Virus record (IMG/VR): IMGVR_UViG_3300035181_002196
Span: 1-34,444 of that record
Length of the DNA stretch: 34,444 bases
DNA from: a virus
Direction: 5' to 3' (one strand)
A program made the position numbers and the translations under genes. Shown here piece after piece: positions 4,676-29,760 of this stretch. Each line of letters begins with the position of its first letter. The first letter of the stretch is position 1. A model generated the notes under the pieces. The model saw only the letters and a program-made list of their open reading frames with translations. It was not told where the DNA came from and made no database searches.

Positions 4676-5287
4676 ATGCCTTTAAAAAGCTTTATAATTC
4701 AAGAATCTCTTAAGGCAGAACATGCTGAGAGATTCATTCTTTATGTTGACCGTTATCACGCTCAAGTATTTCTTGATCTTAGAAAATTACTTGAAGATGC
4801 TTGGAAATCACAAGTTTCTAAACTATCAAAACAGCATAAAGTTCCTGCTGACGTCAAAGAAGATTATCTTCTTCGTAACCCATCTGCTACCCTTGAACTT
4901 TCAGTAGAATCAAAACCTGAAAAGATCATTACATCTCGTCTCAGAGAAACAGCTGAAGTTTCTCCTTCAGTTAAAATTCCGTTAGCTCTAAGTGCTGAAG
5001 CTCGAGATCTAATCTTAAAAACTCTCCTGAAAGATTCTGAAGATATCTTCAAAGAGCTAACTTATCGTTGGAGTGAGATCTTTAAGGTTGAGCGCAAAGG
5101 TAAAGCGGTTCCTTGGTTTAAGATCGTCCAAGACCATGATGAAGTGAGACTTCAACTGTCACTTTCATCAGAAGATCAAGAAGTCTATAAGACTCTATAT
5201 TCAGTGAGAATTGAATATGGTAAGAAAGGTAGTAAATTGAAAGATTTTGACAGAGTGTACTTAGTATCTCTGATAAAACAACTATGA
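4676..5287 (+). CDS. Late protein of unknown function with a capsid-targeting-like N terminus
   Basis: 203 aa. The start ATG has only a weak Shine-Dalgarno (GAGATCACG). The N terminus reads M-P-L-K-S-F-I-I-Q-E-S. I-Q-E followed by Ser at residue 10 fits the (L/I)-X-E cleavage rule of the T4 prohead protease, and a short basic-hydrophobic leader before it resembles T4 internal-protein targeting sequences. The remainder is rich in charged helices and ends in K-D-F-D-R-V-Y-L-V-S-L-I-K-Q-L. I recognise no family. An internal head protein is my inference. Confidence 0.6.
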   Translation: MPLKSFIIQESLKAEHAERFILYVDRYHAQVFLDLRKLLEDAWKSQVSKLSKQHKVPADVKEDYLLRNPSATLELSVESKPEKIITSRLRETAEVSPSVKIPLALSAEARDLILKTLLKDSEDIFKELTYRWSEIFKVERKGKAVPWFKIVQDHDEVRLQLSLSSEDQEVYKTLYSVRIEYGKKGSKLKDFDRVYLVSLIKQL

Positions 5288-5691: not shown

Positions 5692-6075
5692 ATGAAAATC
5701 TATGAAATTATAAACCCTTCAATAATGATTGAAGGGATGGTTGAACCCAATGTGATGATGTCAGTACAGAATATCATCAAGAACGGTAAAGCTACCAATA
5801 CGTTTGAGTATATCGTAGTAGCTAGACTGCTTCAGCTCTTGAAAAATGGAGATTTTTACAAAGAATCTAATCCATTAGAAGTAAACATGTCGACCTCTAA
5901 AGACGTACTTGATACCCTCAGAGCTCTTGATCCGCTTGACATGGTGACGGTAGCCAAACAATTACTAGACTTACTAATCTCTAAGGATAAAGATGAGTTT
6001 TATTATCTAGTAAATCCGGCACAAGAGTTTGCTGAATGGTTGAAACTGGTACGTTCACGTGAAGCAAATGATTAA
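5692..6075 (+). CDS. Late protein of unknown function, 127 aa
   Basis: ATG preceded by AAGGAAC. The protein is almost wholly helical and soluble: M-K-I-Y-E-I-I-N-P-S-I-M-I-E-G-M at the start, leucine-rich helices in the middle (V-V-A-R-L-L-Q-L-L-K) and E-F-A-E-W-L-K-L-V-R near the end. The M-I-E-G at residues 12-15 is a near match to a prohead-protease site. No family is recognised. The late-type box just upstream and the terminator after it mark it as the last gene of this late group. Confidence 0.6.
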   Translation: MKIYEIINPSIMIEGMVEPNVMMSVQNIIKNGKATNTFEYIVVARLLQLLKNGDFYKESNPLEVNMSTSKDVLDTLRALDPLDMVTVAKQLLDLLISKDKDEFYYLVNPAQEFAEWLKLVRSREAND

Positions 6076-11095: not shown

Positions 11096-11659
11096 ATGCA
11101 AGAGGATGAAATCAAAAATAAAGTCAAGAAAGAGATTGCGTTTCAATTAGGTATCAAAGAATCACAAGTCCATCTTGACTCAACTTTAAAATCACTTGGC
11201 GCAGATTCTCTTGACATAGTTGAGATCGTGATGCAAATTGAAATTCAATTTAACGTTAATTTTAATGAAAACATTGATTTCACTACGGTTCATGATATTG
11301 TTGAGGCAGTCAAGAGTGAAATTGGTTTCATTCCTCAAAAGCAATTTGAACAAGAAGATATTCCCTCACTGACTGAAATAGATGCACTACTTAAATCAGA
11401 TGATGTTGAAGGTGTTGACATCTGTGATCAAGAAAGCGAAGAGACTCTACCAATAAATCATAACAAGCGTTGGGAACAAGAAGATGATGATAAGGTGATC
11501 TTGATGTTTGCAGCCAGATCAAGTGTTGAAGTGATTGCACAAGAACTTGGTAGAAGTGTATCTTCAATCTTACATCGGCTTGCGATCAAGAAATTGCTTA
11601 AATATGATCACAAAGAAGCTGCGTACTACACAACTCCATCTCTTTTCTACAAAGTTTAA
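11096..11659 (+). CDS. Acyl carrier protein fused to a helix-turn-helix domain
   Basis: 187 aa, start two bases after the dsbA stop. Residues 1-78 are a complete acyl carrier protein: Q-L-G-I-K-E-S-Q-V, then L-G-A-D-S-L-D-I-V-E-I-V-M, where S38 in the D-S-L motif is the phosphopantetheine attachment site, and a final T-T-V-H-D-I-V helix. A Glu/Asp-rich linker (about 79-122) leads to residues 124-168: K-R-W-E-Q-E-D-D-D-K-V, then V-I-A-Q-E-L-G-R-S-V-S-S-I-L-H-R-L. This is a Myb/SANT-like or sigma-like helix-turn-helix of the kind that scans DNA. The two domains are in one uninterrupted frame. I know of no characterised protein with this pairing. An acylation-dependent DNA-binding protein, or a decoy for host phosphopantetheinyl transfer, are possibilities. 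Confidence 0.85.
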   Translation: MQEDEIKNKVKKEIAFQLGIKESQVHLDSTLKSLGADSLDIVEIVMQIEIQFNVNFNENIDFTTVHDIVEAVKSEIGFIPQKQFEQEDIPSLTEIDALLKSDDVEGVDICDQESEETLPINHNKRWEQEDDDKVILMFAARSSVEVIAQELGRSVSSILHRLAIKKLLKYDHKEAAYYTTPSLFYKV

Positions 11660-11662
11660 AAC

Positions 11663-13240
11663 ATGTTTATCTCTTCATTTTATGACCGTTACTCTGACAA
11701 GGTTATAGTTTGGGAAAAAACTAATTCTGGAAAGAGAATTAGAGTAGAGCATCTTAGTCCGTATTATTTCTACGTCCCATCTAAGACAGGTACATTCACT
11801 GCAATCACAGATGAAAAACTTGAAAAATTAGAGTTTAACTCAAAACGTGAATTTGATGATGCATGCTACAAATATGAAAAAAGGTTTGAGAGTGATCTAA
11901 CTACTCAAGAAAAAGTTATGATGACATACTTTGGAAAACCAATTCCGAAGTTAATCATCGGCTTTCTTGACATTGAAGTTGATTATGATCCTTCGATAGG
12001 ATTTTCTAGACCGTCAAATCCTTACGCTCCGATCAATGCAATCACACTTTACAGAACTGATCTAGAAGCATACTTTACGATCGCGATACCTCCCCCTGAG
12101 TGGGGGAACAAACCTCTTCCTGACGAGATGATAGCTGATAATTATTTTATCGTCAGGTCAGAAAGAGAGCTACTTGAGCAGTTCTTGATGTTGATTGAAG
12201 AAGTTGACGTCCTGACAGGTTGGAACTCAGAATTCTTTGATATACCCTACATCGCAAAGAGAATTGAGCTCTTGTTCGGTCAAGCAGCACTTAAAAAGCT
12301 AGGATTTGAAGGAGCTCCTGCTCCTCGGTGGGGTGAAAAAGATCGGTTCAAGGGATCTTCTGAGAAAGAACTGGTGATTGACCTTCAAAGCCGAGTTCAC
12401 CTTGACTATATGGCTCTCTTCAAGAAATTCAACCTCGGTGGACGTCAATCTTATGCGCTAAATTCAATCGGTGAAGAAGAAGTTGATGAAAAGAAGATTG
12501 AATATGACGGAAGCTTACATGAGCTCTATCATAATGACTTTGCTAAGTTCATTCTCTATAATAGACATGACGTTCGAATCATCATCAAGATTGACAAGAA
12601 ATTTAAGTACATTGAACTAGCAAATGAAATGGTGCATGAAGCTACAGTAAATTTTTCAGCAATCTTTGGTTCTGTGCAGTTAATTGACACCGCAATCATA
12701 AACTTCTGCCATTCTCATCTCAATCGAATTGTCTTTGACAAGGTACATAAACCAAAACAGAGCGTTGAAGGTGCGTTAGTGATGTCTCCTGTAGTAGGAC
12801 TTCACAGAATGATCGGTTCTTGTGACATTAACTCACTGTACCCTAGTACTTATCGTTCTCTGAATCTATCACCTGAAAAGATCGTAGGTCAGTTGGCAGA
12901 ATATGAAGAGGGATGGAGAGCCATTTATAATGGAATCAACAATCCTGACAATGATCTCAATATGCTGAAGACCGTAACGATCATTCCAGAAGATTCTCAG
13001 GAAGAGAGAGTCAGCTTATCAGTCAGAGAGATGATTGACTTATTGAAACAAAACAAGTATGCAGTATCAGGGTACGGTACGATCTTAGACCAGGGAAACG
13101 GAGAAGGGTTAATTCCAGCAGTATTAACTTACTGGTTTAACGGTCGTAAAGAAATGCAAGCTCTAAAAAAGAAATACGCTAAAGAAGCAGATTTAATTTT
13201 TGATAAAGGAATCAAACTTGATAGTCTTTTAGATAAATAA
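11663..13240 (+). CDS. 43A: DNA polymerase gp43, N-terminal half (43A: exonuclease and palm motif A)
   Basis: 525 aa. It holds the N-terminal and 3'-5' proofreading domains of a T4-type family-B polymerase: Exo I with D103 and E105 in F-L-D-I-E-V, Exo II in T-G-W-N-S-E-F-F-D-I-P-Y (about 185-196), Exo III Y-N-R-H-D (299-303). Polymerase motif A follows, D-I-N-S-L-Y-P-S at 388-395 with catalytic D388. The chain runs into the fingers (F-N-G-R-K-E-M-Q-A-L-K-K-K) and stops at TAA 13238-13240, before motifs B and C. Those are in the gene at 14023. Together the halves are about 948 residues, near the 898 of T4 gp43. The two products must assemble for activity, as is known for split gp43 in some Aeromonas phages. 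Confidence 0.95.
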   Translation: MFISSFYDRYSDKVIVWEKTNSGKRIRVEHLSPYYFYVPSKTGTFTAITDEKLEKLEFNSKREFDDACYKYEKRFESDLTTQEKVMMTYFGKPIPKLIIGFLDIEVDYDPSIGFSRPSNPYAPINAITLYRTDLEAYFTIAIPPPEWGNKPLPDEMIADNYFIVRSERELLEQFLMLIEEVDVLTGWNSEFFDIPYIAKRIELLFGQAALKKLGFEGAPAPRWGEKDRFKGSSEKELVIDLQSRVHLDYMALFKKFNLGGRQSYALNSIGEEEVDEKKIEYDGSLHELYHNDFAKFILYNRHDVRIIIKIDKKFKYIELANEMVHEATVNFSAIFGSVQLIDTAIINFCHSHLNRIVFDKVHKPKQSVEGALVMSPVVGLHRMIGSCDINSLYPSTYRSLNLSPEKIVGQLAEYEEGWRAIYNGINNPDNDLNMLKTVTIIPEDSQEERVSLSVREMIDLLKQNKYAVSGYGTILDQGNGEGLIPAVLTYWFNGRKEMQALKKKYAKEADLIFDKGIKLDSLLDK

Positions 13241-13271
13241 AATCATGGTATCTACAAAGAAGGATGTTATG

Positions 13272-14078
13272 ATGATTTTTGTATATAAAACTGTCAATAG
13301 AATTAATTCTAAATATTATATCGGTGTCCATGAAGGTTCAGAAACTGATGAATATCTTGGATCTGGAACTTATTTAAAAGCTGCGATTAAAAAATATGGT
13401 ATTGAAAATTTTACAAGAGAAATTTTACAAATTTGTGAAACTAAAAATGAAGCATATAACATAGAAAGAAGTCTTGTTACACCTGAACTAATAGATTCTG
13501 GTGTGTGTTATAACTTAAACGTTGATGGGTATGGAGGATGGTATCATATAGATTCTTCAGGTGACAATAATCAAATGAAAAAACGAAAAGTTTCTGCAAA
13601 AGTTTGGAAGTCTAGAAAAGATAATCCATTAGCAGTTTTAAAACAAACAGAAACAGCAAAAGAAAATATCAAAAAAGCTCATAAAGCAAATATTGGTTCT
13701 GTTAGATCGGAAGAAACAAGAAAAAAAATTTCATTGTCCAATAAAGGACAAACAAGATCAATAGAATCTAAACAACGAATGTCAGATTCAGCGAAGAAAA
13801 AACCAAAAGCATCAGAAGAAACAAAAAAGAAAAGATCAGAAAATGCAAAGAAGCAAAATAGAGATATGTCTCTTCTAGCAAAAGGCATAAAACGTTCTGA
13901 AGAATTTAAGAAAATCATAAGTGATCGCATGAAACAACAACATGCTAATCAACTAGAAAAATATACTTGTATGTACTGTGGTTTAGAATCTAAGTTAAAA
14001 GCAAATATCACTAGGTGGCATAATGAAAACTGTAGACATAAAGAATCTAACAAAGTCTCAAGCTCTAGCATTAGTTGA
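13272..14078 (+). CDS. GIY-YIG homing endonuclease, Seg-like, between the polymerase halves
   Basis: 268 aa from ATG 13272. ATG 13269 and 13245 are in frame, but AAGGA at 13260-13264 favours 13272 or 13269. The first 90 residues form a GIY-YIG nuclease domain: F-V-Y-K-T-V-N-R-I-N-S-K-Y-Y-I-G-V, Y-L-G-S-G-T-Y, A-I-K-K-Y-G-I-E-N-F, and a catalytic-type Glu in N-I-E-R-S-L. Next come repeats of S-E-E-T-R-K-K-I-S type (NUMOD3-like DNA-binding segments), then a C-terminal zinc-finger-like C-M-Y-C...H-N-E-N-C. The gene is markedly richer in AAA codons than its neighbours, a sign of transfer. Its last 56 bases overlap the start of 43B. The gap between polymerase halves leaves little room for a group I intron, so it looks free-standing. 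Confidence 0.93.
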   Translation: MIFVYKTVNRINSKYYIGVHEGSETDEYLGSGTYLKAAIKKYGIENFTREILQICETKNEAYNIERSLVTPELIDSGVCYNLNVDGYGGWYHIDSSGDNNQMKKRKVSAKVWKSRKDNPLAVLKQTETAKENIKKAHKANIGSVRSEETRKKISLSNKGQTRSIESKQRMSDSAKKKPKASEETKKKRSENAKKQNRDMSLLAKGIKRSEEFKKIISDRMKQQHANQLEKYTCMYCGLESKLKANITRWHNENCRHKESNKVSSSSIS

Positions 14079-15294
14079 AACTGGAGAGTTAGTTCTACAT
14101 AAAAATAAACTATATACAATAGAAGATTTTAATGAAGCTATAGAGCTTCAAGAAAAATCAGATTATAATGATATGCTTCAGGGTGTTCGAAAAGTATTGT
14201 TAAATTCTACTTACGGAGCATCTTTGAATGAATTCTGCCGCTTTCATGATCCTCGTTTAGGAGCTTCAACTACAGGTTCAGGCCGACAGATTACGACTCA
14301 CATGATCAATACAGTATCAAGATGTTTAATGGGTGATAACGCTCCTAAGGTCATAAAAACTATCGGATTTGATAAGAAGACAGGTGAATCTATCAATGAT
14401 TATAGTGTAGCAGTACCATCTGGAATTGGACCAATTTATTCTGACACAGACTCCTGTTATTTTGTTATGAAAAATTTAGTAGGTGATTCTATTGAAGACG
14501 CGATTGCTTGTGCAGACGCAGTAGTATCACAGATAAATGATTCATTCCCTGAATTCATGAGAACTGCATTCTTATGTCAACCAGGATTTGATAATCTGAT
14601 CAAAGCAAATCGTGAAGTTGTAGCTACCGCTGGGATATTTAGAGCCAAGAAAAAATATATCTTGCACGTTGCTGACATGGAAGGAAAGAGATTAGATCCA
14701 GCTGATCCTAAGTCACTTAAGTCTCAGGGAAGTGACATTAAGCTCTCATCAACACCTGAAACGATCAGAACACTCCTAAAAGACGTTACCATGATGATCT
14801 TGAACGGAAGTGAACGTCAACTGATTGATGATTATATTATCAATTTTAGAAAAAATCTACATGACAATCATAACATCAATCCTCTTGACTACGCAACAAT
14901 CACGTCAATCAATAACATTGATGAGTATTTCATAAAATGGAAAACGATTGAAAAACCAGGGTTAGGTAAAGCTAATCTACCCGCGAACGCAAGATCTTCA
15001 ATTAACCATAACTTGTGTGTAGAAATGTTTGGAGATAGTGATACTCGCCAAATCATATCAGGAAATAAGATCAAGATCGTTTGGCTAAAACCAAATGATC
15101 ACGGTTTCTTAAACATGGCCTTCAACTCTGACACTCTTAATCTTCCAAAATGGTTTACTGACAACTTTTCAATTGACGTAAAGTTAACTGAAAAGAAATT
15201 AGTTGACAAGAAACTTGAAAACATTTTTGAGCCGATCGGTTGGTCTGTTCCAACAGTACAAACACAGCTTGTTGCTAAGCTATTAGACTTCTAA
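14023..15294 (+). CDS. 43B: DNA polymerase gp43, C-terminal half (43B: palm motifs B and C, thumb)
   Basis: 423 aa. The start ATG 14023 is inside the end of the homing endonuclease gene, four bases after AGGTGG. The first 50 residues complete the fingers, then motif B appears as R-K-V-L-L-N-S-T-Y-G-A-S at about 56-67, and motif C as I-Y-S-D-T-D-S-C-Y-F at 138-147 with D141 and D143 catalytic. The thumb follows. The last residues are V-A-K-L-L-D-F. A short C-terminal hydrophobic D-F peptide is how T4/RB69 gp43 binds the sliding clamp. All catalytic residues missing from 43A are here, so the split gene is presumably active in trans. Confidence 0.95.
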   Translation: MKTVDIKNLTKSQALALVETGELVLHKNKLYTIEDFNEAIELQEKSDYNDMLQGVRKVLLNSTYGASLNEFCRFHDPRLGASTTGSGRQITTHMINTVSRCLMGDNAPKVIKTIGFDKKTGESINDYSVAVPSGIGPIYSDTDSCYFVMKNLVGDSIEDAIACADAVVSQINDSFPEFMRTAFLCQPGFDNLIKANREVVATAGIFRAKKKYILHVADMEGKRLDPADPKSLKSQGSDIKLSSTPETIRTLLKDVTMMILNGSERQLIDDYIINFRKNLHDNHNINPLDYATITSINNIDEYFIKWKTIEKPGLGKANLPANARSSINHNLCVEMFGDSDTRQIISGNKIKIVWLKPNDHGFLNMAFNSDTLNLPKWFTDNFSIDVKLTEKKLVDKKLENIFEPIGWSVPTVQTQLVAKLLDF

Positions 15295-21958: not shown

Positions 21959-21966
21959 CATAAATA
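21959..21966 (+). promoter_or_regulatory. Late-promoter-like box before the eight-gene operon
   Basis: CATAAATA followed by GAAC differs from the T4 late box by one base and stands 20 bases before ATG 21986. The gap 21866-21985 also has TATAAT at 21920-21925 without a good -35. Confidence 0.45.
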
Positions 21967-21985
21967 GAACATGAAACTTTAATTC

Positions 21986-23485
21986 ATGGCGAATATGAAA
22001 CTTAACTTTAAGTCATTTAATCAAAAATTCTTAACTGAAGGCTCAGACTTCGGGATTGCACATATTGAAGATCTAGACATAGAAACCTTCATTAGATCAA
22101 TCGAAAACATTCATAAACTTGAAGCTATTCAAAAGCTTGATGGCGCAAATCTTAGAGTGGGAATTGATGAAAATGGTGAACTTTTTACTTCTCGTGAACA
22201 AAAGGGTGGTAAGCGTTTTTATAATGAGCATGACTTCCCTAAAAATTCAGCATATGATGCTTTCAAAGCAGCACATCTTGTCTTAGAGAAGGTTGAAGGA
22301 TCAATTCAAGAAGTTCTTGACAAGGGTGAGTCAATTAATCTTGAAATCATCTTCGGGGCACAGCCAAATACTGTATTTTACGGAAAAGATAACGTAAATT
22401 ATATTGCTCTATTAGAGATGGTACAAGGTGATGACCCTTCAGTTAAACCTGATCAATCAAAGATTCAAAAGCTTTTGAAGCTCTTGAAGGGTAAAGTATA
22501 CAACATCAGATCAACCTTTGCTGATACTATTGACGGAATTACGATTGTCAAATCTCCTCGAGTTACTGATTGGAAGTTTACCACCTCTGATAAAGTACCC
22601 AAGAATGAAGTGAGTGAAATTGATTTTTCTGAAAAACTTTCAGAACTAAAAAGATTTCTTCGAGCAGAAAATGATGCTGCTCGAGATGAAGGTCGTGACC
22701 TTACCAACTTTGAAGTATTAAAAGATCACTCCAAGAGCTTAGCTGAAGAGAGAAAGACACTTTCAGAAAAGATCATGACTGATTTTAAGCTTCCAATAAA
22801 ACAAAAGTTACTTGATCTAGTCTATAAACAAAAACCTTCACTTAGAGGTGATATTGATTCTAGCGGAGCTTATTCTGGAATAGAAGGGATCATTTTTACA
22901 AACCCTGAATCTAGAGAACGTTTTAAAGTAGTAGACAAAGATGTGTTTACATCAATCAATAATTTTAACTATCAAGCTAGAAAAAGCATTGCTGGTAGAA
23001 TTGCTAGCGCAGACCAAGATCTACCGATTGAATCTAGAGGTGGAATTGTAGGTGAAGCTAAACTTAGATCGATTAAGTTATTCAGTCTTGACAATGCTGA
23101 ATTGCCGATGCAGACAAAGAAAGTAATTGAAAAGTTTAAAGGTGACACTAAAGTAGAAACTATCCATAATTTAGCCAAGTCATTACATCAACTAAAAGTA
23201 CCTTCAATCAAGAGAAAAATGCAAGCTATCTATATTTCAGCGCTAGATGAGCTGGAAGGAGCTCTTGACGCGTTCAAACAGAATGCAAGTAACTATGAAT
23301 TAGAACTAAAGAACGGTAAAAAGATAAAGTATACTAAAGAAATTCAACGTCGAACTTTAATGGTTTTTGCTGAAGCAAGAAAAAATATAACTTCAATGAT
23401 CTCAAAGATTCGTAGAGCTAATGACATGGATGACTTAATTGAAATCTTCTTTGACGCTCAACTTAATCAAATTCACGGAGAGTAA
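21986..23485 (+). CDS. Ligase-type nucleotidyltransferase (KxDG motif), candidate head-packaged enzyme
   Basis: 499 aa. The motifs of the covalent nucleotidyltransferase superfamily (RNA/DNA ligases, capping enzymes) are visible. Motif I is E-A-I-Q-K-L-D-G-A-N-L with nucleophile K50. A following S-R-E-Q-K-G-G-K-R-F (69-78) is Arg-containing. Motif III is N-L-E-I-I-F-G with E120, motif IV G-I-E-G-I-I-F with E299, and motif V R-F-K-V-V-D-K with K313. A long helical insert separates III and IV, and the C-terminal 180 residues are helical with no known ligase domain. The N terminus, M-K-L-N-F-K-S-F-N-Q-K-F-L-T-E-G, looks like a T4 capsid-targeting leader with an L-T-E cleavage site. The best description is an RNA- or DNA-ligase-like enzyme of unknown substrate. 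No close match is known to me. Confidence 0.75.
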   Translation: MANMKLNFKSFNQKFLTEGSDFGIAHIEDLDIETFIRSIENIHKLEAIQKLDGANLRVGIDENGELFTSREQKGGKRFYNEHDFPKNSAYDAFKAAHLVLEKVEGSIQEVLDKGESINLEIIFGAQPNTVFYGKDNVNYIALLEMVQGDDPSVKPDQSKIQKLLKLLKGKVYNIRSTFADTIDGITIVKSPRVTDWKFTTSDKVPKNEVSEIDFSEKLSELKRFLRAENDAARDEGRDLTNFEVLKDHSKSLAEERKTLSEKIMTDFKLPIKQKLLDLVYKQKPSLRGDIDSSGAYSGIEGIIFTNPESRERFKVVDKDVFTSINNFNYQARKSIAGRIASADQDLPIESRGGIVGEAKLRSIKLFSLDNAELPMQTKKVIEKFKGDTKVETIHNLAKSLHQLKVPSIKRKMQAIYISALDELEGALDAFKQNASNYELELKNGKKIKYTKEIQRRTLMVFAEARKNITSMISKIRRANDMDDLIEIFFDAQLNQIHGE

Positions 23486-24427
23486 ATGAAAATTCTAGCT
23501 ACATTACAAGAAAGTGTAAACTTAAATCGATTAAAAGGTGCTTCGTTTGATAAGGTTCAACAAGCATTTATGGCTAACTATTTAGCAGCTCTCCTATTCT
23601 TGAAATTACAAGATCTAAAGGGATTGAAGCTAATAAATGATCCTAGTCACGCAAATCTTAAAAAGTTTTCAAGTTCGATGAGTGATTTAAACTTTTGGGG
23701 TAGATCTCTATTTTATTCAAGTGACTCTGAAATTAAGAATCGAATGATGAACGGTCATGCTGAAGTGTTGGCCGACTCAGCTGGACGAATTTCATATCCT
23801 AGAATCCAAAAGATCATGAACGTCCCTCTAACAGCACCTGACAGAATTGACTGGCAGGATACCATCTCAGCGGTTGCATTGTTAAGATATCGATTTGACA
23901 TCAAGAGCTCTTATCTTGATAAAATTCTACGATCAATTTATAAGTGGGATACACTTGGAAGCGCAGCTAAACAAAAAACCATTAACGATTCGTTTATGTT
24001 CTTAATGCAAAGTGATTCTCAATCAGCACTCTTACCTAGACTTCGTAATCTAGAAAACACTATGATGGTAACTTCAATCACCTCACTTGTTAATAAGGTT
24101 CTTGGATTTAAACGCCTTCATGAAGATGGAGAAGGTGGTGCAGTTACAGCAGTTTCTGGAGATGCGTCTTCAACAGCTAGTATCGGTACTACTAATAATG
24201 CAATCATTGACCCTGGATCTGCTGGTTCTAGAGATCAAGACACAGATCTAAGCGGTTTGTACCGGTTAACTAAACTATCAAAGATACAAATCTCTAAAAA
24301 AGGTCGTTTCACCATTAGAAACGGAAAGATCGTAAAGAAAAAAGTTAAAAGTCTTGAATACAAGAAGTTTAAATCACCTGACTTCATGAAACCAACCAAG
24401 AAAGGAATTGAAAATGCAACTAAATGA
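23486..24427 (+). CDS. Protein of unknown function with a flexible G/S/T linker, 313 aa
   Basis: Starts at the base after the preceding stop. It opens M-K-I-L-A-T-L-Q-E-S, an (L)-X-E site at residue 9. Residues 10-205 are helical (F-M-A-N-Y-L-A-A-L-L-F-L-K and L-N-F-W-G-R-S-L-F-Y-S). A disordered segment, about 211-240, is Gly/Ala/Ser/Thr-rich and is preceded by another L-H-E-D site. A strongly basic tail (I-V-K-K-K-V-K-S-L-E-Y-K-K-F-K) could bind DNA. I recognise no family. Linkers like this are common in phage virion proteins processed during head maturation. Confidence 0.6.
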   Translation: MKILATLQESVNLNRLKGASFDKVQQAFMANYLAALLFLKLQDLKGLKLINDPSHANLKKFSSSMSDLNFWGRSLFYSSDSEIKNRMMNGHAEVLADSAGRISYPRIQKIMNVPLTAPDRIDWQDTISAVALLRYRFDIKSSYLDKILRSIYKWDTLGSAAKQKTINDSFMFLMQSDSQSALLPRLRNLENTMMVTSITSLVNKVLGFKRLHEDGEGGAVTAVSGDASSTASIGTTNNAIIDPGSAGSRDQDTDLSGLYRLTKLSKIQISKKGRFTIRNGKIVKKKVKSLEYKKFKSPDFMKPTKKGIENATK

Positions 24428-25700
24428 AATGATGAGAAAATTAGCTCCTGAATTTGGGTTCTTAGCTGAAGACTCTAAAAATATTGAAAATGAAGTAATC
24501 GCTAAGCTAGACAGATCAATTAAGTATGATGAAATTGACACCATCACGTTTGGAATTGAAACCGATGACGGAAAGATCGTCAAAGTTTATGTAAATGCTG
24601 AACAAGCTGATGATTTTGAAAAAGCTCTGGCAGATAAATTGGGTGAAGTAGATGACATTGAAGAAGTCTTAAACGCGCTCTCAAAAGACTTTGAGATTGT
24701 TGACGTTGAATGGCCATCAAAAAAAGAAATTTCTGATATTGATGAAGAAGGTGAAGATGGAGAAGACACCGGAAAAGAAGTTCTTGATCCGAAAGTATAC
24801 AATAACGCAAAGGAACGCATTGACATGGAAGATAAAATGAAAACCCCAAACTTTGAACAACTATCATCTGACGAACTAGAATTGCTTGAAGCGGATCAAA
24901 ACTCAATTGAAAGCCGCTTTACTACAGCGACTCAATTAATGATCTACCATGCGATCATTGATCTTGGAATCCCAGAGATGGCACTGATACGTAGCCCATA
25001 TCGCCCTCAAATCGTTAAAGGAATCAAGGACAAAGCGTTTGAGATGATGAAAAATTCAGCACTTAAGAACGCTTTAAAAACTTTCATTGTTCGAAGCATT
25101 GATTTTGATGAAAAGGCAAAGGAAAATGAAAAAGAAAACGCTGACGTTAAAGAGTCACGTATCAATGAAGATGTAGGTAACTGGAACTTTAGCATGTCTA
25201 AAGACATGCTTACGATCTCAAATAGCATGCTCAAGATCACACTAGACGCTGAAGAAGCTGAAAAGGTTGTTAAGGGAATCAGCAACCATGATGCTGTAGT
25301 AGTTAGAGACGCTGAAGATACTAAGAAAAAAGTTGTGTTCTCACCTAGAGGATCAAAATTAGTTGTTAAGCAGATCGGAACTCCCGAGGGAATCACGATG
25401 AGCTCTAAAGACATAGACGACCTGATTGATATTATATCATCATCAACAGATGAAGTTAAAGAAAGTATTGATAAGTCAAAATCATTGATCAGTAACTTAG
25501 AAGCTTTTGCAAAAATTAAGCTCAAACCAGGTAGAAACATAATCAAAGGATATCCAGTTACAATTGAAGATAGTGATGGAAGCTTCGTTGACATGACAGC
25601 TGTAGATAAAGATGCTTGCACCAACTTATTGAAAGCTCTTAGAGCTGAAGGATTCAAAGCAAAACGTGACGGTGATACCGGAATCTCTATTGATGAGTAA
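24414..25700 (+). CDS. Acidic protein of unknown function with capsid-targeting-like N terminus, 428 aa
   Basis: ATG 24414 has GGA seven bases upstream and overlaps the previous gene by 14 bases. An in-frame TTG at 24408 is less likely. The start is M-Q-L-N-E-M-M-R-K-L-A-P-E-F-G-F-L-A-E-D, with an L-A-E site at residue 20. The protein is markedly acidic (D-I-D-E-E-G-E-D-G-E-D about 105-115), with two similar-looking alpha/beta segments (I-T-F-G-I-E-T-D-D-G-K and S-K-D-M-L-T-I-S-N-S-M). Acidic charge is typical of T4 core and internal proteins. No named family. Confidence 0.6.
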   Translation: MQLNEMMRKLAPEFGFLAEDSKNIENEVIAKLDRSIKYDEIDTITFGIETDDGKIVKVYVNAEQADDFEKALADKLGEVDDIEEVLNALSKDFEIVDVEWPSKKEISDIDEEGEDGEDTGKEVLDPKVYNNAKERIDMEDKMKTPNFEQLSSDELELLEADQNSIESRFTTATQLMIYHAIIDLGIPEMALIRSPYRPQIVKGIKDKAFEMMKNSALKNALKTFIVRSIDFDEKAKENEKENADVKESRINEDVGNWNFSMSKDMLTISNSMLKITLDAEEAEKVVKGISNHDAVVVRDAEDTKKKVVFSPRGSKLVVKQIGTPEGITMSSKDIDDLIDIISSSTDEVKESIDKSKSLISNLEAFAKIKLKPGRNIIKGYPVTIEDSDGSFVDMTAVDKDACTNLLKALRAEGFKAKRDGDTGISIDE

Positions 25701-26367
25701 GCTAGATCTTGATAGATTCAAGTACCTCGACTATGAGACAATCAATGTCGAGGGAAAACGAATTTATAAAATCTCTGATGAAAAGTACTATCCTTCAATC
25801 ACTACGGTTCTAGGCCAAACGCTAGAAACAGAAAAGAAGAACGTGCTCAATAATTGGAGAGCTAAAGTAGGGAACAAAGAAGCTGATAGAGTATCTAAAG
25901 CTGCATGTGATCGTGGTACTAACACTCACTTAATGCTAGAACGTTATCTACGAGATGAAGACCCAAAATTGCACGAGTTCCCTGAAGCTCATGTCAATAT
26001 ATTTAACAGTCTTCGACTTGAACTTAGAAAGATAAATAAAGTGTTTGGACAAGAAGTCGTTCTTTATTCTGACATTTTAGGTATTGCAGGACGTTGTGAT
26101 CTAGTAGCTGAGTATCAAGATACTATTGCCATCATTGACTATAAAACTTCAAGTAGAGTTAAATCAATTGATGAGATAGATGATTATTGGGTACAGTGTT
26201 CAGGATATGCTATGATGCATAATGAAATGTTCGGAACAAACATTGAGAAAATGGTAATAATGATGGGAGTGGAAAACCATCTTCCGATGGTTTTCAAGAA
26301 AACTATAAATGAAAAGTTAGTTGAAAACCTTTATAATAGAGTTACTTCTTTTTATCAAACTATCTGA
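25693..26367 (+). CDS. PD-(D/E)XK nuclease, RecB/Cas4-like
   Basis: ATG 25693 overlaps the previous stop by eight bases, giving 224 aa. The frame is open upstream, but M-S-K-L-D-L-D-R-F is the natural start. The RecB-family motifs are in order: R-G-T-N-T-H-L-M-L-E at 74-83, E121 in Q-E-V-V-L-Y-S, G-R-C-D with D136, I-I-D-Y-K-T-S with D149 and K151, and Q168...Y172 in Q-C-S-G-Y-A. No Fe-S cysteine cluster is present. Such nucleases degrade or trim DNA ends. Similar short exonucleases occur in T4-like cyanophages. Its place in the operon beside a ligase-like enzyme suggests joint action on nucleic acid. Confidence 0.88.
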   Translation: MSKLDLDRFKYLDYETINVEGKRIYKISDEKYYPSITTVLGQTLETEKKNVLNNWRAKVGNKEADRVSKAACDRGTNTHLMLERYLRDEDPKLHEFPEAHVNIFNSLRLELRKINKVFGQEVVLYSDILGIAGRCDLVAEYQDTIAIIDYKTSSRVKSIDEIDDYWVQCSGYAMMHNEMFGTNIEKMVIMMGVENHLPMVFKKTINEKLVENLYNRVTSFYQTI

Positions 26368-26406
26368 ACGAACTTGTAAATTTTATACAAAAACTTTAAG
26401 GAAACT

Positions 26407-26841
26407 ATGATGCCTCTTACTGAAAGTGACAATTCTGCGTTAGTTACACCTGACTTTACAGGGACTGATGACGAGAAAATCTCAGTGATTAATTACTGGG
26501 CAGAACTTATCGGTTTAATTCGCTCTATTGATGCATCAGTATCTTCTCTTGAAAATAAGCTAGCAATTGTTTCGCAGATCAAAAAAGAGATTGAACTGAT
26601 TGAATTAAGCTTAACTAATGCTACAGCACAGCCGATAGATAATGGTGATGGTGCTGTTGAATTAAAAAAAGCTACTAACGCTGATAAGAAAAAAGTAACG
26701 GTTGATATCAAGGGTGAAAAAACACCTGGGTCTTCACAGAGCCCAAATTATCCATCATCATCTATTGATACTCCTAATCGCCCTCTAGCAACAACAGAAG
26801 ATCTAAAGCATCAATTGAAGAAATTAGCAGGGATCAAATGA
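26407..26841 (+). CDS. Coiled-coil and linker protein of unknown function, 144 aa
   Basis: ATG 26407 or 26410, with AAGGAAACT upstream. The N terminus is M-M-P-L-T-E-S-D, with an L-T-E site at residue 6. A coiled coil spans about 30-75 (S-V-S-S-L-E-N-K-L-A-I-V-S-Q-I-K-K-E), and a disordered Pro/Ser/Thr-rich part is at 100-128. The end, E-D-L-K-H-Q-L-K-K-L-A-G-I-K, is a basic helix. No family recognised. It may be a scaffold or an adaptor among the operon's products. Confidence 0.55.
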   Translation: MMPLTESDNSALVTPDFTGTDDEKISVINYWAELIGLIRSIDASVSSLENKLAIVSQIKKEIELIELSLTNATAQPIDNGDGAVELKKATNADKKKVTVDIKGEKTPGSSQSPNYPSSSIDTPNRPLATTEDLKHQLKKLAGIK

Positions 26842-27656
26842 AGATCTTAGAGATCAAAGAACAATCAGAAACAAGTTATAAGATGGATCTTTCTGATCAT
26901 CTATTTCTTGAGCTCTTAAATAAGAAAACAAAGAACTCTCATCGTGTAATGACAATGGCTCCGATCTTTACTGTGAGTTCTGGTAGTGACATCATGTTGA
27001 TAACTCCTGAGCTATCTCCAAAGAAGATTAGTAAATTTTGGATTGACAGTATCATTAAAACTTCACCTCACTGGAAAAAATTTCCAGATCGTGAGCACAG
27101 TATTCGTGCTTTTACAGAACGAACGAGAGCTGGAACTGATCCTTATGTAGTGATACCCTTTGATCGCTCTAGAGTTGGAATCAGTTTAAAAAGTTCATTT
27201 TACAAAAGCTTTAGTGAGGTTGAACGTAGCTTAAATCTTGATCGAGTTGACAATGCTGCGATGCTTAGTTGGGTAAAAAATATCAGCTCAGCAGTAAATA
27301 AATTATCAGGTGAAGATCTCAATACCGAGATAATGTCTTATTCGAGCTTTGAATCTTTTTTAAAGAACTTAGACAAAGTGATCATTGACAATCGTGGAAA
27401 GATCGTTAAAAACTTGCAGACGAATACTGAAATAACTGAAGAAGAAAGCCAAGTTATGAGCGATCTAATGTCAAGATTTGTAACATCAACAATGCTCTAC
27501 CTTAAAGAAAAATTTGACCCTGATTCAAATGGATTTAAAGTTATTCCAATTGAATCATTTCATGAAGTAGAAGATCGTGAAGTATGGATTGCTTCTCCCT
27601 GTCTTTTAATTAAACAATCAAAATATGTTGAGCTATTCAAGCAAGGAAAAATATGA
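26838..27656 (+). CDS. Protein of unknown function, 272 aa, in the late operon
   Basis: Overlaps the previous gene by four bases (ATGA). The start is M-K-I-L-E-I-K-E-Q-S with I-K-E at residues 6-8. A segment at about 80-120, H-W-K-K-F-P-D-R-E-H-S-I-R-A-F and P-Y-V-V-I-P-F-D-R-S-R-V-G-I, looks like an enzyme core, with a charged pair and a substrate loop. I have seen this general pattern in phage proteins of undetermined function but cannot name the family. The C-terminal part is helical. The stop overlaps the start of the RimK-RimB gene. Confidence 0.6.
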   Translation: MKILEIKEQSETSYKMDLSDHLFLELLNKKTKNSHRVMTMAPIFTVSSGSDIMLITPELSPKKISKFWIDSIIKTSPHWKKFPDREHSIRAFTERTRAGTDPYVVIPFDRSRVGISLKSSFYKSFSEVERSLNLDRVDNAAMLSWVKNISSAVNKLSGEDLNTEIMSYSSFESFLKNLDKVIIDNRGKIVKNLQTNTEITEEESQVMSDLMSRFVTSTMLYLKEKFDPDSNGFKVIPIESFHEVEDREVWIASPCLLIKQSKYVELFKQGKI

Positions 27657-29086
27657 AAAAGTTGATCATAGTTACAGCTGAACCTAATAACTTTGTACCT
27701 ATTGAGCTAAAAAAAGCTGCAGAAAAAGTAGGAGTAGGACTTGAAACTCAAATTCTTGACATCACAAAATGTGTCTTGATTGAAGGTGCTGAAAGCGGAG
27801 TGTTCTTCATAAACGATGGTATTTTAGTTCCTGTTAACGTTGATGCTGAAACTGCGATCATTCCAAGGTTAAATGAATACCACTTAGAAATTAAGCTTGG
27901 TATCTTGAAGCGCTTAGAAACTCAAGGAGCTAAATTACTGAACACTCCTGAAAGTATGGAACTGTGTAATGACAAGCTAATGACTCAAGTGGTATTGAAC
28001 TCTGCTGAAATCAAGACACCTTATAGCGTCATAATTCAGGGTACAGATGATATTGAAACTGTAGTTACATCGTTAGAACAACAAGGAAAGATAAACTATC
28101 CTTTTGTTATTAAGACATTAAGAGGTACTCATGGAATTGGTGTCATGAAAGTTGACAGCCGCGCTTCATTGGTGTCAGTAGCTCAAACGCTTTCTAAGGA
28201 AGGTATTGATTTCATGTTACAAGAATTTTGTAAACATGACAAATCTATTAGAGTTATCATGATCGGTAACTCTTTATTGGCTTCAAATTTACGTGGTCAA
28301 CCTAAGGAAAAAGATGAGTTTCGTACTAACTCTCACTTGGGTTCTGAAACTGAAAAATATGAACCATCTGAAGAAGAGCTTGCAGTATCAAAAAAGATTG
28401 TTGAGCTTTTTGGAAGTAGATTCTGCGCAATTGATTATCTCTTGACTGAAAATAAAGAGATAATTGTGCTTGAAGTTAACGGTTCCCCGGGTCTTGAAAA
28501 CATTCAAAAGAACTGGCCTGAAAAGAACTTAGCAGAAGAGATTGTAAAGTACTTAAACCAATCTCAGGCTGATGTTGAACAACCTATAGCACCAACTTCT
28601 GAAATCTCAACAATGTCACCAACGGCAACAGATCCTGTAGCACAAACAACTGAACCTGATGATCATCATTTAGGTGAAACTGAACCGTGTACTGTACACC
28701 GAATTATTGATAACACAGAAGCTAGAATAGACACAGGTGCAAAGTACAGTTCATTACATGTTGATAAATCAGTCATAGAAGGTGATTTTGTAAAATTTAC
28801 AAGAGGTGACATCACTTATAAAGTACCTGTGTACAAGACAGTAAAAATTAGACAAGCTTCTCTTGATCAATCAATTTCCCGTCCAGTAGTCAAGCTTGAC
28901 ATCACGGTCAGGGGAATACGTTTAAATCAGATTGAGTTCACTTTGAATGACCGTTCAACCATGAAGTATGAAATTTTATTAGGTAGAAATGTTTTGGGTG
29001 CGCTAGGAATCCCAATTACATTTGATTCTAATGGATATTCATCTGAATCTCCAGAAAGTGAAATAATTGACTCTGAAGAAGAATGA
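27653..29086 (+). CDS. RimK-like ATP-grasp ligase fused to a RimB-like aspartic protease
   Basis: 477 aa. Residues 1-300 are a RimK/glutathione-synthetase-type ATP-grasp enzyme: L-N-T-P-E-S-M-E-L-C-N-D-K at 96-108, P-F-V-I-K-T-L-R-G-T-H-G-I-G-V at 150-164 (ATP lysine and glycine loop), M-L-Q-E-F at 188-192, and A-I-D-Y-L...V-L-E-V-N-G-S-P-G-L at 259-281. RimK adds Glu residues to the C terminus of ribosomal protein S6. A Pro/Thr-rich linker (304-340) leads to a RimB-like domain (retropepsin-like, PF05618 type): A-R-I-D-T-G-A-K-Y-S-S-L-H at 357-369 with catalytic D360, and L-N-D-R-S-T-M-K-Y-E-I-L-L-G-R at 431-445. Bacteria often encode RimK and RimB side by side. Here both are one chain, so a tag can be made and removed by one protein. 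The target may be host S6 or a phage protein. Confidence 0.9.
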   Translation: MKKLIIVTAEPNNFVPIELKKAAEKVGVGLETQILDITKCVLIEGAESGVFFINDGILVPVNVDAETAIIPRLNEYHLEIKLGILKRLETQGAKLLNTPESMELCNDKLMTQVVLNSAEIKTPYSVIIQGTDDIETVVTSLEQQGKINYPFVIKTLRGTHGIGVMKVDSRASLVSVAQTLSKEGIDFMLQEFCKHDKSIRVIMIGNSLLASNLRGQPKEKDEFRTNSHLGSETEKYEPSEEELAVSKKIVELFGSRFCAIDYLLTENKEIIVLEVNGSPGLENIQKNWPEKNLAEEIVKYLNQSQADVEQPIAPTSEISTMSPTATDPVAQTTEPDDHHLGETEPCTVHRIIDNTEARIDTGAKYSSLHVDKSVIEGDFVKFTRGDITYKVPVYKTVKIRQASLDQSISRPVVKLDITVRGIRLNQIEFTLNDRSTMKYEILLGRNVLGALGIPITFDSNGYSSESPESEIIDSEEE

Positions 29087-29760
29087 TAAATAGTATCAAC
29101 AACAGTCTAATATCAAAAGACAAGATGACAAAACAAACTAAATCTCCATTTTTAATTTTTCAAAACTTAATTGATTCTGATACATGTGATCAGATTGCAA
29201 CTGAAGTTAGAGTGCAACCGATCAAAGATGATTTTGACGTGCTACAGCCGTCTGAACGATTTCATGTAGAAGCTGAAAATAAAATTTTTGATAAGTACAA
29301 AGAATTAATTAAACCTATTGAAGAGCACTACACAGGGTTTAAATATAGGGGAACAGAACACTTAGTATTTCAACAGTTCCCTGTATCAAGTGGAAAACCT
29401 GCTGAAGAACCTCACTGTGAAAATGCGGTGTTCAAGAGAAAACATTGGATTAGAGTTAAAGATCGTGACTTAACTGGAGTGCTTTGGTTAAAAGACTATC
29501 AAGAAAACCCACCATTTGATCTTGATACACACGTATTGGGTGGAAAACTTGAATTTCCTGTTTACAATTTCGGGTTCCAACCTCAAAAAGGAACCTTAGT
29601 AATCTACCCGTCTAATGAAAGATTTATCTCTCTAACTTCTTCAATTCTAGTAGGTGAACTTCAATGCGTCAGATTTCACATCTGCGGGGAAGGAATTTGG
29701 ATATATGATCCAACTGATTACCCAGGTGATTTTAGATCATGGTTTAATGAAATAGTTTAG
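29083..29760 (+). CDS. 2OG-Fe(II) oxygenase-like protein with an incomplete metal triad
   Basis: 225 aa if it starts at ATG 29083, which overlaps the previous stop. ATG 29125 is an alternative. The fold markers of a prolyl-4-hydroxylase-like dioxygenase are present: E-E-P-H-C-E-N at 108-114 (H111 and E113 in place of H-x-D), T-G-V-L-W-L-K-D-Y at 131-139, G-G-K-L-E-F-P at 153-159, and P-Q-K-G-T-L-V-I-Y-P-S at 167-177. The distal iron-binding His, expected a few residues after the P-S, is not there (N-E-R-F-I-S-L-T). An R197 might bind the 2OG carboxylate. It may be inactive, use another ligand, or be a related but different fold. It is the last gene of the operon. Confidence 0.6.
   Translation: MINSINNSLISKDKMTKQTKSPFLIFQNLIDSDTCDQIATEVRVQPIKDDFDVLQPSERFHVEAENKIFDKYKELIKPIEEHYTGFKYRGTEHLVFQQFPVSSGKPAEEPHCENAVFKRKHWIRVKDRDLTGVLWLKDYQENPPFDLDTHVLGGKLEFPVYNFGFQPQKGTLVIYPSNERFISLTSSILVGELQCVRFHICGEGIWIYDPTDYPGDFRSWFNEIV

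Follow-up and report, generated by a model that had tools for sequence, protein, structure and literature searches.

The operon and its N-terminal leaders

The IMG/VR record IMGVR_UViG_3300035181_002196 is a 34.4-kb fragment of a jumbo T4-like phage (34,444 nucleotides, all of which is referred to here as the window). The window encodes a gp41/gp61-type helicase and primase, a DNA polymerase with a homing endonuclease interruption, PhoH and tail-type genes. Downstream of the helicase lies an operon of eight genes (21986-29760), which encode in order an RNA-ligase-like protein, a family B protein, a family C protein, an exonuclease, a family E protein, a family F protein, a RimK-type ligase fused to a RimB-type protease and a weakly oxygenase-like protein. 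Five of the eight products begin with short leaders ending in (L/I)-x-E, as an earlier, sequence-only reading had reported, and all five are found where it had placed them (Table 1). The leader with IQE/S which that reading noted at 4676 is also present (MPLKSFIIQE/SLK), although its site is not strictly conserved. In T4, gp21 cleaves after L/I-x-E, and capsid targeting requires no more than the first 10 residues of the internal protein IPIII (PMC9026906). The five leaders are probably (about 0.72 by our estimate) T4-type capsid-targeting propeptides, the products of which would be packaged in the head, cut and injected.

Table 1. Positions of the operon features, leaders and further leader candidates in the window. 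A slash marks the predicted cleavage site.
Feature	Position	Strand	Remarks
T4-type late-promoter core (CATAAATA)	21959..21966	+	27 nucleotides upstream of the ligase ATG
RNA-ligase-like nucleotidyltransferase, 499 residues	21986..23485	+	K50-LDG, E300-G, K314; from alignments and Foldseek
Ligase leader, MANMKLNFKSFNQKFLTE/G	21986..22039	+	18 residues, or 15 if Met4 is the start; ends KFLTE/GSD
Family B protein, 313 residues	23486..24427	+	Joined to the ligase C-terminus in other phages
Family B leader, MKILATLQE/S	23486..23512	+	Motif in 8/9 family members
Family C protein, 428 residues	24414..25700	+	From homologue comparison
Family C leader, MQLNEMMRKLAPEFGFLAE/D	24414..24470	+	Ends FGFLAE/DSK; motif in 14/17 family members
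Exonuclease (phrog_298; PDDEXK)	25693..26367	+	No leader; motif in 0/13
Family E protein, 144 residues	26407..26841	+	Possible prohead-core protein
Family E leader, MMPLTE/S	26407..26424	+	Motif in 6/7 family members
Family E C-terminal tail, LKKLAGIK	26815..26838	+	Common to gp22-position scaffolds of related jumbo phages
Family F protein, 272 residues (phrog_12810)	26838..27656	+	Homologous to the tagged Atu_ph07 paralogue array
Family F leader, MKILEIKE/Q	26838..26861	+	Motif in 12/12 family members
Further candidate, leader MPLKSFIIQE/S	4676..5287	+	G001 homologue FIVQE, V at P3
Weak further candidate, leader ...SIMIE/G	5692..6075	+	P3 = M here; SIITE/G in G001, P3 = I

The first gene of the operon was assigned from its catalytic motifs and its predicted fold. 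In the ligase alignment K50, D52 and G53 are invariant and E300, G301 and K314 are conserved in at least 90% of sequences, representing motifs I (KxDG), IV (E-G) and V (Lys). The top Foldseek matches of the ligase model were T4 Rnl2, Trl1, Rnl1 and archaeal and Naegleria RNA ligases. T4 Rnl2 was the one match below E=0.001 (E=8.5e-4) and the Naegleria RNA ligase had a probability of 1.0, with modest TM-scores (0.2-0.4), and the match to Pfam RNA_ligase (PF09414) lay below the cut-off. The fold search supports the ligase-like enzyme of the sequence-only reading as RNA-ligase-like; judged from fold rank alone, it would prefer RNA over DNA. A search for this ligase in T4, RaK2, XacN1, S-PM2 and KVP40 found none. 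Its open reading frame (ORF) begins one codon after a stop, so that no start is possible further upstream, and the homologues indicate that Met4 may be the real start.

The promoter core upstream of the ligase resembles the T4 late consensus, which we take to be TATAAATA. In the window and in 14 of 15 homologous loci (15/16 in all), ATAAATA occurs no more than 100 nucleotides ahead of the ligase start, and from this core we propose that the operon is transcribed late. No clear Shine-Dalgarno sequence precedes the ligase start (21959-21988), the gap from core to start is a mere 20 nucleotides or so, and in some homologues it is less than 10 nucleotides. The late ligase mRNA may therefore be leaderless.

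Conservation of the leaders and their spread over unrelated proteins

The bare (L/I)-x-E motif is too short to be diagnostic. The excess in the late operon suggested by the sequence-only reading exists within the window (5 of 8 operon genes versus 8 of 41 other genes, Fisher P=0.023), at a level that is suggestive only. The window alone thus offers weak evidence, and it is the comparison with relatives that makes the case from sequence strong. The closest fully readable relatives of the window are two contigs, G002 (345 kb) and G001 (360 kb), and G001 is collinear with it. Genes in unannotated genomes were called with a simple custom gene finder, and some starts may be wrong. Between the window and G001, 4/4 leader-bearing operon pairs and 2/27 other pairs retain the aligned N-terminal motif (P=0.0005).

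The ligase provides the largest comparison, with homologues from 21 viral contigs plus a few more from later searches. The motif stands at the domain boundary in 21 of 22 distinct leaders, against an expectation of 2.4 from shuffled leaders (P about 5e-22), and its position is 4-9 residues ahead of the His of a conserved HxEDL at the domain start. Kinship is handled in these P values only by collapsing near-identical leaders, which leaves the motif in 17/18 (P about 2e-18). The leaders themselves are 5-23 residues long and variable in sequence among homologues, and P1' is G in 16 of the 21 with the motif. In the AlphaFold model the leader is the sole disordered segment, as only residues 1-22 have a predicted local distance difference test score (pLDDT) below 50. 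The ligases of PA5oct, Phosso, Atu_ph07 and locus L213 lack a leader and begin at or near the domain; the leader is therefore an add-on and not part of the ligase fold.

The motif also recurs above shuffling in families B, C, E and F (Table 1), and the exonuclease family of the same operon, in which none of 13 members has it, serves as an internal negative control. In an eight-member alignment of family F only seven columns are invariant, including Met1 and the Glu of the site. At some loci the ligase is fused to its neighbors. A single ORF of 740-1035 residues joins it to family B at L196, L178, L213, L181, L216 and L220, and to family C at L212. The linker keeps (L/I)-x-E in 5 of 6 ligase-family B fusions, as would be the case for a polyprotein cut at the point where separate genes elsewhere carry their own tags.

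A position-specific leader pattern that fits IPIII (M[KR]-hydrophobic-x-x-[LI]-x-E, in 8-10-mer versions) was applied to whole genomes. In G002, the closest full-length relative, it occurs on 14 unrelated families versus 1.2 expected (maximum 9 in 2000 shuffles), among them a Nudix hydrolase, an SLT transglycosylase and a cytidylyltransferase. In Atu_ph07 it occurs on 9 families versus 1.1 expected, and in G001 on 26 genes, mostly of a single paralogue family. Applied to T4, the pattern recovers IPII and IPIII (MKTYQEFIAE) plus one other gene. The G001 and G002 leaders (MKFKEFLKE) closely fit the hydrophobic spacing of IPIII, in which positions 4 and 7 concern targeting and positions 8 and 10 cutting. 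Such sharing of a single leader by many unrelated proteins is the pattern expected of an address tag. A gp21-type prohead protease (Peptidase_S77) was above the cut-off in 8/8 related records >250 kb searched.

Large arrays of tagged paralogues were also observed. G001 holds about 39 paralogues of about 200 residues each at 280-306 kb (L020-L022) and at 335.8 and 347 kb, mostly in one tandem array; most have leaders like MKFKEFLKE, a leucine-rich middle and a common C-terminus (..CQ.ELIDAGLEEYAKL). In Atu_ph07 a tandem array of tagged paralogues with a YRG motif (L027:12546-20273; leaders MRWEQLTE/ and MKWHQLTE/; MRWEQLTE/ is given for gp054-gp063) lies directly behind the ligase operon, and phrog_12810 is matched both by family F and by these paralogues adjoining the ligase.

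Other operon products and competing explanations

The capsid-targeting interpretation is favored because the site is fixed at the domain border of a leader that is otherwise variable, because five unrelated families share it, and because of the late promoter, the S77 protease in relatives and the many cargos. The operon would be transcribed late in infection, and a leader of 6-19 residues would steer each product into the prohead core. A gp21-type (S77) protease would then cleave after (L/I)-x-E, and the mature protein would be retained in the head and injected together with the genome. We infer that the ligase, once delivered, would reseal broken RNA ahead of the synthesis of new phage protein, its most plausible substrates being tRNA or other host RNAs that host nucleases have cut.

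Several observations weigh against this interpretation. First, no head genes lie within the 34.4-kb window, and its own prohead protease is therefore not seen. Secondly, the model of the family F protein has no fold match in the PDB, hence no effector activity can be named for it. Third, the leaderless ligase orthologues noted above imply that ligase packaging is not universal. Fourth, the ligase leaders depart from the aromatic spacing seen in the IPIII tag. Fifth, the motif is not enriched in the PA5oct virion, being present in 19 of 87 proteins detected by mass spectrometry and in 47 of 197 others (P=0.76). Lastly, genome-wide counts of the bare motif lie only modestly above column shuffles, which an internal control stretch of G001 exceeded as well. 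Given the PA5oct virion proteins and the internal control stretches, genome-wide counting was rejected as an unspecific test.

The last two observations, and the frequency of the bare motif, are in line with an N-terminal (L/I)-x-E that is not processed and arises by coincidence or as a side effect of amphipathic N-terminal helices. Such an origin is the least probable of the explanations considered here, since it would have to account for the domain-border position in nearly all ligase leaders against none of the exonucleases of the same operon, and for one specific leader on 14 unrelated families of G002.

Virion proteomics of related phages bears indirectly on delivery. For Agrobacterium phage Atu_ph07, 29 virion proteins were identified by mass spectrometry within coding sequences (CDS) 31-76, a block taken here as a whole and not member by member (PMC6102473). 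The Atu_ph07 ligase gene and the tagged paralogue array lie within this block, which links them to the virion indirectly. For PA5oct, detection in virions is marked for 10 of the 14 genes between the leaderless ligase and the ribonucleotide reductase gene, and not for the ligase itself. No homologues of families B, C or E were found among the PA5oct virion proteins.

The sequence-only reading described the products as an enzyme set. This description is supported for the ligase, but the other four tagged products are without assigned function. The proteins at 23486 and 24414 have no trustworthy match in Pfam, PHROG or NCBIfam. Assignment of the protein at 26838 as an Alt-type ADP-ribosyltransferase, which the YRG motif of the Atu_ph07 paralogues had prompted, was rejected: there was no fold match, the key Arg is absent, and YRG itself is lacking in the window protein. 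Family E may be a prohead-core protein, because its LKKLAGIK tail is like that of the gp22-position scaffolds of G001, PA5oct, Phosso, Atu_ph07 and XacN1 (L-x-x-LAGI). No similarity to these scaffolds was found beyond the C-terminal tail, hence family E was not classified as gp22.

The tail of family E also raises the question of whether the products act in the head itself. As prohead-core or assembly factors they would be targeted by the leader and cut by the protease, would act in head assembly, and would be mostly degraded or expelled and not delivered. The T4 core proteins are gp22, gp67 and gp68 (PMC9026906), and for families B, C and E such a role is a real alternative. As an account of the whole operon it is unlikely, as it is not obvious what an RNA ligase whose catalytic motifs are intact would do in head assembly, and the Nudix, SLT and cytidylyltransferase proteins of G002 bear the same leader type. 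It is improbable, and only slightly less so than coincidence, that the protease cuts the leaders from structural virion parts, such as neck or inner shell, which are not injected. T4 capsid and vertex proteins also have propeptides (the gp24 leader is MAKINELLRE/S), but the cargo here is enzymatic, and leaderless orthologues and variable operon content speak against an essential structural role.

The capsid-targeting interpretation may also extend beyond this operon. We consider the chances about even that tag-and-deliver is a general system of jumbo T4-like phages. In it the prohead core would recognize one short cleavable address on dozens of unrelated proteins, which would thereby be loaded into the head, and the prohead protease would remove this address, so that an RNA-repair and host-takeover kit is injected and works before phage gene expression. 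The cargo would include RNA ligase, Nudix, transglycosylase and cytidylyltransferase proteins and large paralogue arrays. RNA repair would then be available from the very start of infection, ahead of the host defenses that cut RNA. Most jumbo-phage genes are without known function, and a readable N-terminal address would allow injected proteins to be predicted from sequence only. The leaders would also offer a natural means of tagging proteins for loading into phage heads.

Other features of the window and its relatives were noted. The last operon gene has a weak oxygenase-like match (2OG-Fe(II), phrog_61, E=3e-5), and the gene before it (27653-29086) joins a RimK-type glutamate ligase (ATP-grasp) and a RimB-type retropepsin-like protease, writer and eraser domains, in a single protein. 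A homing endonuclease gene (13245-14078) separates the DNA polymerase parts 11663-13240 and 14023-15294, unlike the polymerase of G001, which is a single 908-residue ORF. One protein (11096-11659) combines an acyl carrier protein domain with a D5-like regulator-type stretch. A repetitive GNAxIYGNAxI-type protein (284-646; phrog_5070), probably a beta-helix, is related to a long repeat protein of G001.

Comparison with known systems

The mechanism proposed here is already known from T4, and the suggestion that T4-like phages carry a variety of proteins by means of the tag has been made before (PMC9026906). No description of an RNA ligase as head cargo, of the conserved operon or of the breadth of tagged cargo was found in the open-access literature. 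In SPN3US, a phiKZ-type giant phage, a diverged gp21 homologue cleaves many head proteins after Glu, and these proteins are ejected into the host (PMC9026906). Cleavage after Glu by a gp21 relative and ejection would be the shared features, but SPN3US belongs to another phage group and has another cleavage context, whereas the relatives of the window have a T4-type head module with Peptidase_S77. Head-packaging of effector enzymes (polyvalent proteins) has been proposed from domain fusions and gene context (PMC5512222, PMC9503650). The ligase-B and ligase-C fusions resemble such multidomain versions, but no account of RNA ligases bearing a cleavable N-terminal tag was found in those two papers.

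The ligase shares with T4 Rnl1 and Rnl2 and fungal Trl1, its best Foldseek matches, the nucleotidyltransferase fold and the KxDG and EG motifs. However, we know of no head packaging of T4 Rnl1 or Rnl2, whereas the window ligase has a late-promoter core upstream, is tagged, and in some phages is fused to family B. The leaders MKTYQEFIAE, MELITE and MAKINELLRE were read from the T4 record, in genes which we take to be those of IPII/IPIII, Alt and gp24, respectively. Alt, a head-packaged ADP-ribosyltransferase, is comparable as an enzyme with a 6-residue leader (MELITE; compare MMPLTE at 26407 and MKILEIKE at 26838), but no sequence or fold similarity to it was found, and the fold at 26838 has no match in the PDB. 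The closest likeness is to the T4 internal proteins IPI-IPIII and their capsid-targeting sequence (CTS), with a short N-terminal propeptide ending in (L/I)-x-E, predicted late expression and, in the relatives, a gp21-type protease, and the leaders of G001, G002 and Atu_ph07 have the same pattern as the IPII/IPIII leader. The difference is in the cargo, which in T4 consists of a few small basic proteins and Alt, and here would comprise an RNA ligase, the products of a conserved late operon and 9-14 unrelated families per genome, with arrays of up to about 39 paralogues.

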